Positions 14,440-51,429 of a stretch of 52,420 bases of DNA are shown in pieces; position 1 is the first letter of the stretch; each line of letters opens with the position of its first letter. A program made the translations under genes and the position numbers. The notes below the pieces were generated by a model, which was not told the origin of the DNA, did not search any database, and saw only the letters and a list, made by a program, of their open reading frames with translations. The DNA comes from an uncultured bacterium (GTDB taxonomy: Bacteria > Krumholzibacteriota > Krumholzibacteriia > LZORAL124-64-63), in the NCBI GenBank assembly GCA_903912525.1, contig CAIWHK010000025.1, forward strand, positions 200,881 through 253,300, written 5' to 3'.

Positions 14440-15819
14440 TCAGCGCCCGACCATCCGGGTCAGCTGGGCCGAGACCTCGCCGAGGCCGGCCCCCATCTGG
14501 TTGAGGTTCTCGCTGGCCGTCTCGCTCTGGGCGGCGATCCGGGCGTTGCCCTGGCTGACCTGGTCGATCTGGCCGACCGCGACCCGGATCTGGCCGATGC
14601 CGTCGGCCTGCTCCTCGCTGGAAGTCACGACCCGCGCCATGAGGGCCACCGTCTGGTCGATATTGCGGGTGATCTCGTCCAGGATACCGCCAACCTGCTT
14701 CGACGCCTGGACGCCGTGGTCGGCGCTCTGGCGCGAGGCGTCGATCAGGGCCGTCGTTTCCTGGGCCGCCCGGGCGCTGCGCTGCGCGAGGTTGCGCACT
14801 TCCTCGGCCACCACGGCGAAGCCGCGGCCGGCGTCGCCGGCGCGCGCCGCTTCGACCGCGGCGTTGAGGGCCAGGAGGTTCGTCTGGAAGGCGATCTCGT
14901 CGATGGTCTTGAGGATCTGCGCGGTGCGGTCGCTGGAGGTCTTGATCTCGGCGATCGCCCCGAGCATGCCGGTCATCGCCGCGCTGCTCTGTTTCGCATG
15001 AGCGAGGGCCTGGCGCGCCACGTCCTGCGCCTGTTCGGCGCTGCCGGCGTTGGCGCGCGTCTGCGAAGCCATCGTCTCGAGCGAGGCGGACGTCTGCTGC
15101 AGGCTGGCCGCCTGGTTGTTCGCCCCGTCCACCATCTGTCCACTGGTGGCCGAAAGCTCGGCGGCGGCTTCGCTCAGCTGTGACACATCGTCCAGCAGCC
15201 GACCGGCCACGGACTTCACGGGCACGATGACCAGTTTGTTGATCAGCAGCGCCAGGGCGCCGGCCACGACCAGCAGCGCAATGATGGCGGCCGCGATGGT
15301 GGCCCAGCTGGCGCGGGCCAGCGCCGCGTCGGCGGCTTTCGTGTCGAGGGTGACGCTGGCCAGGCCGAGCACTTCGCCCTCCTTGGACGAGGTATGGCAA
15401 CCGAGGCAGCTGGCGGCTGCCGCGACGGGCGTCACGGTGCGGCGCGTGTGCGCCTTGTGGTCGACGACCACCATTTCCTTGCCGGAAGACAGGACCTGCC
15501 GGTCCACGTCGTCGCGGGCGTCGGCGTCCTTGCGGGCGCCGAATTCGGCAGCCACGCCGGGGGCGCGGACGGCATGCACGTCGGCCAGGGCGGGCAGCGA
15601 CGAGACGTTTTTCAGGTACATCTGAAGGCCGTTCATGTCGCCGGTCTCGCCGAAAACGGACATGGCGGCCGTGATGCTCGCGGCCGTCAGTTCCGTGGCC
15701 GCCTTCTCCTGGTCGCTGGACAAGTGCCTGACAGTCAAGGCGTTATACACCGTCGACAGTCCGAGCACGACGAACAGGCAGGCAACAACCGAAAGGATGA
15801 CTTTTTCACGCAATGCCAT
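14440..15819 (-). CDS. Methyl-accepting chemotaxis protein with a heme-binding CxxCH sensor domain
   Basis: The 459-residue protein has two membrane segments (about 7-27 and 172-195) framing a ~140-residue periplasmic domain, then a short linker and a full signalling domain with the conserved tip [19 protein letters not shown] and [16 protein letters not shown]. The sensor domain contains one CLGCH motif (Cys138, Cys141, His142), the covalent heme c attachment signature, as in heme-carrying receptors such as DcrA of Desulfovibrio. It may therefore sense redox state, oxygen or nitric oxide. A GGGGGAGGG site precedes the ATG at 15819. No CheA, CheW, CheB or CheR is encoded in the window. The 232 bp downstream, up to the kinase gene, show no clear signal. 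Confidence 0.93.
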
Positions 15820-47621: not shown

Positions 47622-49913
47622 ATGTCCACGACGCGTAAGCTGAAATTGACGATTGGCGCCGTGAGTCTCTGCCTGGTGGCATGCGGCGGCTTCCTGGTGA
47701 ACAACGTTCGCCAGGGCGATCACACGGTCGTCCAGCTCAAGGTCGCCGACCGCCAGCAAACGCTGGTGGCCGAGCTCGTTGAGCAGACGGAGTCGTTGGT
47801 CGCCGGCGTGGGGCGCGAAGAGGCGCTCGCCGCGCGCAACGCCCTGGGCGAGACGATCACCAGCTTCGATGAGGGTCTCGGAGCCCTGCTGGCCGGCGGA
47901 GCCGTGCGCCTGGATGGCCGCGCCCACCGCGTCACCCGCGTCGACAACGCCAGGGCCCGCGAAGCCCTCGAAGCCGCCTCACAGGTATGGACCGATACCG
48001 GCGTGCCGCTGGGCGACCTGGCCGCGGGCCAGTTCTCGCCGTTCAGCGCCGCGGGCCAGGAAGCCGTGGAGGGCCTGCAGGCCCATCGCGAGGAATTGTC
48101 GCAGCACATGGCCGACGCGGCCCTCAGCCTGCGACAGGGCGCCGCGGCGCAGGCCTCGCTGGCCGGCATGGTCCAGTGGGCGGCCATCGGCCTGGGCATC
48201 GCGCTGGTGGCGCTGGTCGCCGTAGTCCGGATCTCGACGTGGCGCGCCAACCGTCCCGCCAAGCCCGCTCGCGGGAAGAAGGCCAAGGCCGGACAGGCGC
48301 ACGACGGCGAAGACGCCGCCGCCCCCGCCCGCCCGCGCTCGCGCGCGCACATCGACGACCAGGACGACGACATGCGCCCGATCCGCTCGGCGCGCCCCGG
48401 CGGTCGTCCGGCGGTCTATGTGCCCTCGATCGACTTCGACAACGTGAACGCCGCCGTCGACCAGCTCTCCGTCGACATGAACACCATCGCCGGCAGCAGC
48501 GACAAGATGCGCCAGGCGATCGACCAGGTCGGCTTCGCCCTGCAGGGCATGCTGTACTCACTGAACGAGATGGCGCAGGATACGAGCGAGGGCGCACAGA
48601 TCGTCCGCAACGCGAACAACGCCGCCGTCTTCACGGCCGACGCCGCCACCGAGCTGGTCCAGGCCGCGCGCGAGATGAGCCGGCTCGTCGGCCGCGTCAC
48701 GCAACTGGCCGAACGCACGCGCCACGTCGCCGGCAACATCGAGGGCGAGGCGCTGCAGACCGGCCGCACCGGCGAGGCGTTCACGTCGGTCGTGGCGCAG
48801 GAGGTCAAGGGCCTCGCGCGCCAGACCAACCAGGCCACGTTCGAGATCGACCAGACAGTCAATGACGTGCTGGCCACCGCGCGCCAGTACGAAGAGGCCA
48901 TCGGGCAGATCATCAAGAACGTCGCGGCCATCAACAAGGTCTCGCAGAACCTCGGGCAGATGATGATCGACCCCCCGCGCCGCGTGCAGCCCGGGTCCTT
49001 CACCACGGCCACTGCGGCCACTGCGGCCGCCGCCCAGGCGATGGCGGCGCCCGCGCCGGCGCCGGTGGCGCCGCAGCCTGTCGCGCAGCCCGCGCCGCAA
49101 CCGACCATCGCGCAGCAGGCCGACGTCCAGGACGACCCGGTGGTCGTCGAGCCGACGGCCCAGCAGACCGCGCAGGTGACCGCCGAGGCCATCGAAGCGG
49201 CCACTCCCGCGCCTGCGCCCACGGCGGCCCCCGCGCCCGCTGCGACAGCAGCAGAGCCGGCACCGGCAGCCCCTACCCCCGGACCGGGCAAGGCTGACGG
49301 CGGCAGCAACGGCAACGTCTTCCTGCTCGGCAAACCGCGCCGGAAGCCGGATGTGGCGGCAGCCCTGGCGGCCGACGCCGGGGACACGGCGCCGGCGGCG
49401 CCGGCTCCTGCTCCCGCACCAGTTCCTGCGCCCGCGCCGGTCGCCGAAGCGCCTGCGCCGGCCCCGGCGCCCACGCCGGCACCTGCGCCTGCAGCCAGCG
49501 AGGCACCGGCCACAGGCACGTCGTCGGCTGACGGCGGCAGCAATCGCAACGTGTTCCTGCTGAACAAGCCGAAGGGCGGCAAGCCCGCGGCGGTCGAAGC
49601 AGCGGCGGCCCCGGGGCCCGAGGCGGCAATCCCCGTTGCGGCGGCCCCGGCGGCGGCCCCGGTCCCGGCTCCCGCGCCGGTGGTCCAGGAAGCGCCGGCT
49701 GAGGAAGCCGAAGAGCACACCGGCCCGAACATCTTCATGCTCACCCGGCCGAAGAAGAAGACGGCGCCGGCCGAGGGCGGCGCAGATGCGGCCGTCGCGG
49801 TTGCCGAACCCGTCACCGTGCCGCCTTCGGAGCCCGCAGCGCCGGCGGCCGCCCCGGCCGCGACGGGTGACGCGCCGAAGAAGAACTTCATCATGCTCAA
49901 CAAGCCGAAGTAG
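47622..49913 (+). CDS. Chemoreceptor-like membrane protein with degenerate signalling tip and a tail of four repeated short motifs
   Basis: The 763-residue protein has two membrane segments (about 10-28 and 183-205) around a ~150-residue periplasmic helical domain, then a basic Ala/Pro linker and a helical domain (about 265-450) that aligns with MCP signalling domains. The tip is altered: LAERTRHVAGNIEGEALQTG occurs where receptors have the [10 protein letters not shown]-type sequence, while the flanking VVAQEVKGLARQTNQATFEID is conserved. The CheA/CheW contact residues therefore seem lost. From ~455 on, a Pro/Ala-rich tail contains four copies of one motif: NVFLLGKPR (565), NVFLLNKPK (643), NIFMLTRPK (703) and NFIMLNKPK (755, the exact C-terminus). 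The ATG at 47622 has GGAGG seven bases upstream, and a strong terminator follows. Function unknown. Confidence 0.88.
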   Translation: MSTTRKLKLTIGAVSLCLVACGGFLVNNVRQGDHTVVQLKVADRQQTLVAELVEQTESLVAGVGREEALAARNALGETITSFDEGLGALLAGGAVRLDGRAHRVTRVDNARAREALEAASQVWTDTGVPLGDLAAGQFSPFSAAGQEAVEGLQAHREELSQHMADAALSLRQGAAAQASLAGMVQWAAIGLGIALVALVAVVRISTWRANRPAKPARGKKAKAGQAHDGEDAAAPARPRSRAHIDDQDDDMRPIRSARPGGRPAVYVPSIDFDNVNAAVDQLSVDMNTIAGSSDKMRQAIDQVGFALQGMLYSLNEMAQDTSEGAQIVRNANNAAVFTADAATELVQAAREMSRLVGRVTQLAERTRHVAGNIEGEALQTGRTGEAFTSVVAQEVKGLARQTNQATFEIDQTVNDVLATARQYEEAIGQIIKNVAAINKVSQNLGQMMIDPPRRVQPGSFTTATAATAAAAQAMAAPAPAPVAPQPVAQPAPQPTIAQQADVQDDPVVVEPTAQQTAQVTAEAIEAATPAPAPTAAPAPAATAAEPAPAAPTPGPGKADGGSNGNVFLLGKPRRKPDVAAALAADAGDTAPAAPAPAPAPVPAPAPVAEAPAPAPAPTPAPAPAASEAPATGTSSADGGSNRNVFLLNKPKGGKPAAVEAAAAPGPEAAIPVAAAPAAAPVPAPAPVVQEAPAEEAEEHTGPNIFMLTRPKKKTAPAEGGADAAVAVAEPVTVPPSEPAAPAAAPAATGDAPKKNFIMLNKPK

Positions 49914-50001: not shown

Positions 50002-51429
50002 ATGCAGCCCGATGAATTCCGCCGCCACGCGCACGAGATGGTCGACTGGATCGCCGACTACCTCGAACACGCCGACCGCTATCCGGTCTGCAGCCGCAGC
50101 AAGCCCGGCGACCTGCTGGCGACGCTGCCGGCATCCGCGCCCGAGGACGGCGAGCCGATGGCCGCCATCTGGGCCGACTTCGAGCGCGACGTCATGCCCG
50201 GCATCACGCACTGGAACCACCCGCGCTTTTTCGCCTACTTCCCGGCCAACAACAGCGGGCCGTCCATCCTGGGCGAGATGCTGTCGGCCGGCCTGGGCGT
50301 CAACGGGATGCTGTGGCAGACCAGCCCGGCGGCGACGGAACTGGAGCAACGCATGATGTCGTGGCTCGGGCAGCTGGTCGGCCTGCCCGACGGCTTCCAC
50401 GGCGTCATCCACGACACCGCCTCGACGGCCACGTTCTGCGCCCTGGTCTGCGCCCGCGAGCGCGCGACCGGCTTCGCGGCCAACCGCGAGGGCCTCGGCA
50501 CCGCGACCGGCGGCCGCGCGCTGCGCGTGTACGCCTCGCGCGAGGCGCACTCCTCGGTGCTCAAGGGCGCACGGCTGGCCGGTTTCGGCGCCGAGCACGT
50601 CGTGCCGGTGGGCATCGACGCTGAGCGCCGCCTCGACCCTGCCGACCTCGAGCGCCTCATCGCGGCCGACCTCGCGGCGGGCCACCTGCCGTGCGCCGTG
50701 GTCGCCACGGTCGGCACCACCGGCTGCACGGCGATCGACCCGCTGGCGGCCATCGGCCCCATTGCCCGCCGCCATGGCCTGTGGCTGCACGTCGACGCGG
50801 CGCTGGCCGGCACCGCGGCGATCCTGCCGGAAATGCGCTGGATCCTCGACGGGATCGGGCATGCCGACTCGCTCGTCTTCAACCCGCACAAGTGGATGCT
50901 GGTGAATTTCGACTGCTCGGCGTTCTACGTGCGCGACCCCGACCACCTGCAGCAGGCCATGGCCATCCACCCCGAGTACCTGCGCACGACACGCGACGCC
51001 GAGGTGGTCAACTACATGGACTGGGGCGTGCAACTGGGGCGCCGCTTCCGCGCGCTGAAACTGTGGTTCGTGCTGCGCAACTACGGGGCACGCGAACTGC
51101 GCGCGATCATCGGCAGCCACCTCGAGGCCGCCCGCGCGTTCGCCGGCTGGATCGACGAGGCCCCGGGCTGGGAACGCCTGGCGCCGGTGCCGCTCAATAC
51201 GGTCTGCTTTCGCTGGCTGCCCGCGGGCGTCACCGGAACCGACGCCCTGAACGGGCGCAACCTTGACCTGATGGCGCGGGTCAACCAGGACGGCGTCATC
51301 TACCTGACGCACACGAAACTCGATGACGTCGTCACCCTGCGACTGGCCGTCGGTCAGCGCGCCACCACGCTCGAGCACGTCCGGCAGGCCTGGGAGGCCC
51401 TCCAGGACACGGCTCGCGCGATCGCCTGA
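50002..51429 (+). CDS. Aromatic-L-amino-acid decarboxylase family protein (group II, PLP-dependent)
   Basis: The 475-residue product has the length and motif set of DOPA/tryptophan decarboxylases: ITHWNHPRFFAYFPANNSG at the start, GVIHDTASTATFCAL, SREAHSSVLKGARLAG, TVGTTGCTAIDPL, WLHVDAALAG and the cofactor lysine in FNPHKWMLVNFDCS (Lys297). It should remove the carboxyl group from an aromatic L-amino acid to give an amine. The HVDAA motif continues with LAG where animal enzymes have YAG; substrate preference is therefore open. GGGAGAG precedes the ATG. A DUF1684 protein gene follows after 11 bp, so the two are likely cotranscribed. Confidence 0.92.
   Translation: MQPDEFRRHAHEMVDWIADYLEHADRYPVCSRSKPGDLLATLPASAPEDGEPMAAIWADFERDVMPGITHWNHPRFFAYFPANNSGPSILGEMLSAGLGVNGMLWQTSPAATELEQRMMSWLGQLVGLPDGFHGVIHDTASTATFCALVCARERATGFAANREGLGTATGGRALRVYASREAHSSVLKGARLAGFGAEHVVPVGIDAERRLDPADLERLIAADLAAGHLPCAVVATVGTTGCTAIDPLAAIGPIARRHGLWLHVDAALAGTAAILPEMRWILDGIGHADSLVFNPHKWMLVNFDCSAFYVRDPDHLQQAMAIHPEYLRTTRDAEVVNYMDWGVQLGRRFRALKLWFVLRNYGARELRAIIGSHLEAARAFAGWIDEAPGWERLAPVPLNTVCFRWLPAGVTGTDALNGRNLDLMARVNQDGVIYLTHTKLDDVVTLRLAVGQRATTLEHVRQAWEALQDTARAIA

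Follow-up and report, generated by a model that had tools for sequence, protein, structure and literature searches.

A tipless chemoreceptor-like membrane protein of Krumholzibacteriia carries a repeated tail motif whose integrity tracks a lone CheR

Known receptor tails that tether adaptation enzymes carry a single C-terminal pentapeptide, which follows the criterion xZxxZ (Z = F, W or Y), is mostly acidic, and sits at the end of a disordered tail, where it is thought to keep CheR nearby (PMC7390727). Its CheR partners have a long beta-loop, while the short-beta-loop type is reported not to use NWETF (PMC3062574). ParP/ParC of Vibrio is a scaffold of another kind, linked to chemosensory proteins without being a receptor; ParP joins core units via MCPs and CheA (PMC5706961).

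Here we describe P0001, a protein encoded in a window (the whole 52,420-nucleotide stretch of DNA that was analyzed) from a genome of 4.29 Mb in 72 contigs. Like receptors with the NWETF-type CheR/CheB tether, P0001 has a disordered C-terminal tail with a short motif at its end. However, tails of the P0001 family end in ..NVFMLNKPK and do not conform to xZxxZ, their motif is basic, longer, and repeated two to five times along ~300 residues, P0001 has no kinase tip, and the lone CheR described below has a short beta-loop. Being basic, repeated, of a different sequence, and paired with a short-beta-loop CheR, the motif falls outside the NWETF group, though it may work alike. P0001 also differs from ParP, as it is itself derived from an MCP and occurs without CheA. 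The open-licence literature contained no account of the motif or of any MCP that combines a missing tip with this kind of tail. Judging from sequence comparisons, we put the probability at about 0.52 that P0001 is a receptor-derived, tipless membrane scaffold whose tail motifs would tether several molecules of a dedicated CheR.

The N-terminal part of P0001 was modelled by AF2 as a membrane-anchored four-helix sensor with pLDDT mostly of 80–98 (Table 1). The PilJ N-terminal domain (PF13675) gave a weak match in four of 12 members (best E 0.0075), and the NarQ sensor was among the Foldseek matches, also weakly (E about 0.05–0.3). Over sensor and stalk, the closest paralogue was L002, an MCP whose N-terminus is PilJ-like and whose tip is normal. 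In most MCPs, the linker position is occupied by a HAMP domain. A Pfam profile search found no HAMP match in P0001, and the connection between TM2 and the stalk was neither HAMP nor rigid; instead, the AF2 model showed a disordered linker (pLDDT < 50 at residues 216–269), which was hypervariable among the aligned orthologues. The hairpin, formed by helices at residues 272–317, 324–380, and 385–449, was the best-conserved portion of the protein and contained invariant columns. The C-terminal ~310 residues were disordered, with tail pLDDT mostly below 50 except for the short helix, and had a Pro+Ala content of about 50%. The short helix persists even where motifs decay and probably has a partner of its own.

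Table 1 Features of P0001 and their positions in the window.
Feature	Position	Strand	Basis
Entire P0001 (763 aa): MCP-like membrane protein, tipless, with a motif-bearing tail	47622..49913	+	ORF, profile, alignment
Residues 1–209: TM1, periplasmic four-helix PilJ/NarQ-like sensor, TM2	47622..48248	+	AF2, PF13675, Foldseek
Residues 210–271: variable disordered linker at the HAMP position	48249..48434	+	pLDDT, alignment, no HAMP match
Residues 272–449: MCP-like coiled-coil hairpin	48435..48968	+	AF2 helices, invariant columns
Residues 364–384: replaced hairpin tip, ERTRHVAGNIEGEALQTGRTG vs QTNLLALNA.. in canonical MCPs	48711..48773	+	Alignment
Residues 513–527: conserved short tail helix, EPTxxEVAxETxxAIEE class	49158..49202	+	pLDDT 68
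Motif copy 1, NVFLLGKPR, GSN-G/GK type	49314..49340	+	ORF translation, tail comparison
Motif copy 2, NVFLLNKPK	49548..49574	+	ORF translation, pattern search, tail comparison
Motif copy 3, NIFMLTRPK	49728..49754	+	ORF translation, pattern search, tail comparison
Motif copy 4, NFIMLNKPK, C-terminus	49884..49910	+	ORF translation, tail comparison

The CheA/CheW-binding tip is the part of an MCP that normally drives the signalling kinase. The first-pass annotation of this DNA had claimed that P0001 lost the tip while keeping its flanks, and the alignment bore this out: QTNLLALN was common to 19 canonical MCPs of the same genome set, P0001 had RTRHVAGN at those columns, and the flank TGxxF..VVA.EV..LA, which follows the tip, was conserved in P0001 and its orthologues. 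No homologue with a normal tip appeared among the orthologues read across this region; all lacked the CheA/CheW tip sequence and had xTRxVAGx in place of QTNLLALN, with the most diverged orthologue (G007) deviating further. P0001 thus shares with the MCPsignal domain (PF00015) the coiled-coil hairpin and the C-terminal flank VVA.EV..LA, together with a PilJ-like sensor as in the paralogue L002, but it scored 28.3 bits, under the Pfam gathering cut-off of 34.6, in addition to its replaced tip and absent HAMP. At E ≤ 1, PF00015 was matched by 12 of 12 members. Conserved E/Q columns were present in the stalk of the orthologues, and none in the alignment separated genomes with CheR from those without, which leaves no candidate methylation site in the stalk that tracks CheR.

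Of the 80 genomes of the class, 25 had an orthologue (E ≤ 1e-20), all of them in one Krumholzibacteriia family and spread over eight of its genera; the genomes compared are uncultured assemblies of varying completeness. In G009 and G066 (95% and 93% complete), the orthologue was the sole PF00015 match (E about 1e-7). CheW domains were confined to one ORF per genome (289 aa in G009 and 330 aa in G066), which implies that neither has a CheA with a CheW domain. Since the orthologue occurs there without a canonical receptor or such a CheA, kinase arrays are not required. G005 showed the reverse, with seven MCPs, two CheW domains, and a CheR, and its orthologue was not found. Gene and chemotaxis system thus occur independently of each other, and dependence on chemotaxis was rejected in both directions. 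It is very improbable that P0001 passes signals to CheA as other chemoreceptors do, its tip having only diverged in sequence and its tail being unnecessary. Its N-terminal part and stalk do resemble PilJ-type MCPs, as the match to L002 indicates, and CheA/CheW are present in most of the compared genomes, but such a receptor is hard to reconcile with the replaced tip and missing HAMP, or with the orthologues kept in G009 and G066.

Some further chemotaxis genes were recorded in these genomes. In five reduced che clusters (L078, L079, L080, L081, and L085), CheW adjoins an HDOD protein; L078 and L079 also encode a CheY-like protein, and L079 a CheD-like one. The CheW of the reduced cluster is the only CheW domain in G009, G066, G004, and the g8 genomes, where CheA appears to have been lost. 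The window itself also contains a canonical MCP at 14440–15819 (-), with its PF00015 match at G000:C25:215434–215904.

The four tail motifs noticed in the first-pass annotation lie at residues 565, 643, 703, and 755 (spaced by 78, 60, and 52 residues), the fourth being the very C-terminus, as had been stated. Related genomes keep the motif in orthologue tails: 18 of the 19 readable tails hold one to five copies of the N-[V/I]-F-[M/L]-L-[N/G]-K-P-K type, so its absence from orthologues, which would have spoken against the docking-tail reading, was not observed. A copy ended 4–5 residues before the stop in 16 of these 19 tails, and several genera had positional types in common, namely a first NVFMLGG/GK, NIYNL/NIYGL, and the C-terminal copy. 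Although a tail of about half Pro and Ala might be expected to yield repeats by chance or at the DNA level in GC-rich low-complexity sequence, this explanation has practically no probability left. The core motif almost never arose when tails were shuffled (5000 shuffles per tail), the C-terminal position was fixed across genera, and copies within one gene differed by synonymous codons, e.g., AATGTCTTCATGCTC vs AATATATTTATGTTG; with codons varying in this way, the conserved entity is the protein sequence, indicating selection on the peptide. Searched as a DNA pattern in 15 genomes, the strict motif matched this gene alone, and a reversed control pattern gave 0 matches. The idea that other proteins share the motif was rejected, as none was found with the strict pattern in the 15 genomes or with a relaxed pattern in its own genome.

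A partner was not suggested by the gene neighbourhood, where PLP decarboxylase, CCA nucleotidyltransferase, subtilase, and cytochrome c assembly genes have no evident link to P0001, and this route was rejected. Loci from different genera share a PLP-dependent decarboxylase downstream of the gene (10 of 19 loci; 50002–51426 (+) in the window), and a subtilase-like protein is divergently encoded beside the orthologue in 10 loci (e.g., L052 3846–5792 (-)).

The CheR search was aimed at a pentapeptide-like tether, and a lone CheR clade was recognized only later. Its 20 sequences form a separate clade (support 100/99), distinct from the che-cluster CheR (L083; G000:C70 in the genome of P0001), and their beta-loop is short, less than in che-cluster CheRs. 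The lone CheR gene is unlinked to that of P0001; it lies at G000:C8:21365–21937, flanked by cheY1 and cheY2, in a locus with the conserved order mutM, TerB/DnaJ, cheY1, cheR, cheY2, F1, F4. The cheY1-cheR-cheY2 cassette (L096 2212–3974) has no adjoining CheA gene, and cheY2 is absent from it in several lineages, such as G017, G021, and g13.

Tail integrity was compared with four partner families (CheW, MCP, CheR, and CheY1), and genes outside these four may have the same distribution. The lone CheR was present in 17 of 17 genomes with intact tails. The table of intact tail against lone CheR read 17/0/1/15 by genome and 6/0/0/8 by lineage (Fisher p 1.5e-8 and 3e-4, respectively, uncorrected for shared ancestry). 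In G009, G066, G007, G004, and G010, the locus retained its flanks and cheY1 and lacked cheR, while the G063 contig ends shortly past cheY1. Among these CheR-less genomes, the tails of G009 and G066 were reduced to one perfect copy each with a degenerate C-terminus, that of G007 had no good copy, the orthologue of G004 was present with its tail unread, and no orthologue was found in the g8 genomes (G010, G063, and G019). The tail helix was still present in G009 and G066, so constraint on the tail was not lost as a whole. On the RpoB tree, tail-specific decay occurred in just two lineages (part of g7 and g5), and the whole gene was absent in g8, g4, and the g3/g6/g11 group. Two genomes were exceptions: G002 had the lone CheR and its orthologue was not found (a 790-contig assembly), and G061 lacked both the lone CheR and cheY1, its orthologue contig stopping before the motif region. 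These patterns suggest, at the level of sequence, that the tail serves to receive the lone CheR, a dedicated methyltransferase.

The tail might instead dock another partner, such as a response regulator or a polar or cytoskeletal protein, with CheR co-occurring through a larger module. We regard this as unlikely, if far from negligible: a perfect motif copy outlives CheR in G009 and G066, which leaves an additional tail partner possible, the positional motif types (NVFMLGG, NIYNL, and C-terminal) may point to multiple ligands, and cheY1 accompanies nearly every orthologue. However, cheY1 was retained in all CheR-less genomes with an intact locus, including those with decayed tails (G009, G066, G007), G004, and g8 without an orthologue, so it alone does not explain tail decay. 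Conversely, cheY1 is gone from the locus in G021, where CheR and an intact tail are kept, though other cheY1-like copies exist elsewhere in this genome. CheY1 was thus not supported as the gene tracked by the tail.

The tail is multivalent, its Pro/Ala linkers are disordered, and the stalk is highly conserved, all of which would also suit motifs acting as self-assembly stickers, which bind the coiled-coil stalks of neighbouring molecules to form a condensate or polar hub. This is improbable, as the motifs decay in G009 and G066 while the stalk remains conserved, and the full-length AF2 model did not order them on the stalk, which is weak evidence.

Because tail integrity tracks CheR rather than CheY1, CheA, or canonical receptors, the dedicated CheR is the likeliest soluble partner. 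In the scaffold reading, the PilJ/NarQ-like sensor and two TM helices would anchor P0001 in the membrane, a floppy linker would take the place of HAMP, the hairpin without a CheA/CheW-binding tip would serve as a stalk, and the disordered Pro/Ala-rich tail would present the repeated docking motif. For this motif, the most likely ligand is the CheR whose gene lies between cheY1 and cheY2; one P0001 molecule could in this way collect several CheR molecules at the membrane, where they may act on the P0001 stalk or on receptors nearby. The proposal made at the outset, in which a receptor scaffold bears a tail with several docking sites, fits all of the evidence; docking itself stays a prediction, for which the dedicated CheR is now the candidate partner. 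A methylation module independent of the kinase, comprising the tipless sensor-scaffold, the motif-recruited CheR, and one or two CheY-like proteins without CheA, is a more speculative and rather doubtful extension.

If CheR docks on the motifs, receptor tethering of adaptation enzymes would have been invented twice, the second time in multivalent form, and the two partners would make a clear peptide-enzyme pair. The tether would sit on a receptor that no longer contacts the kinase, separating methylation from kinase control. The P0001 family would then be an example of a chemoreceptor converted into a scaffold.
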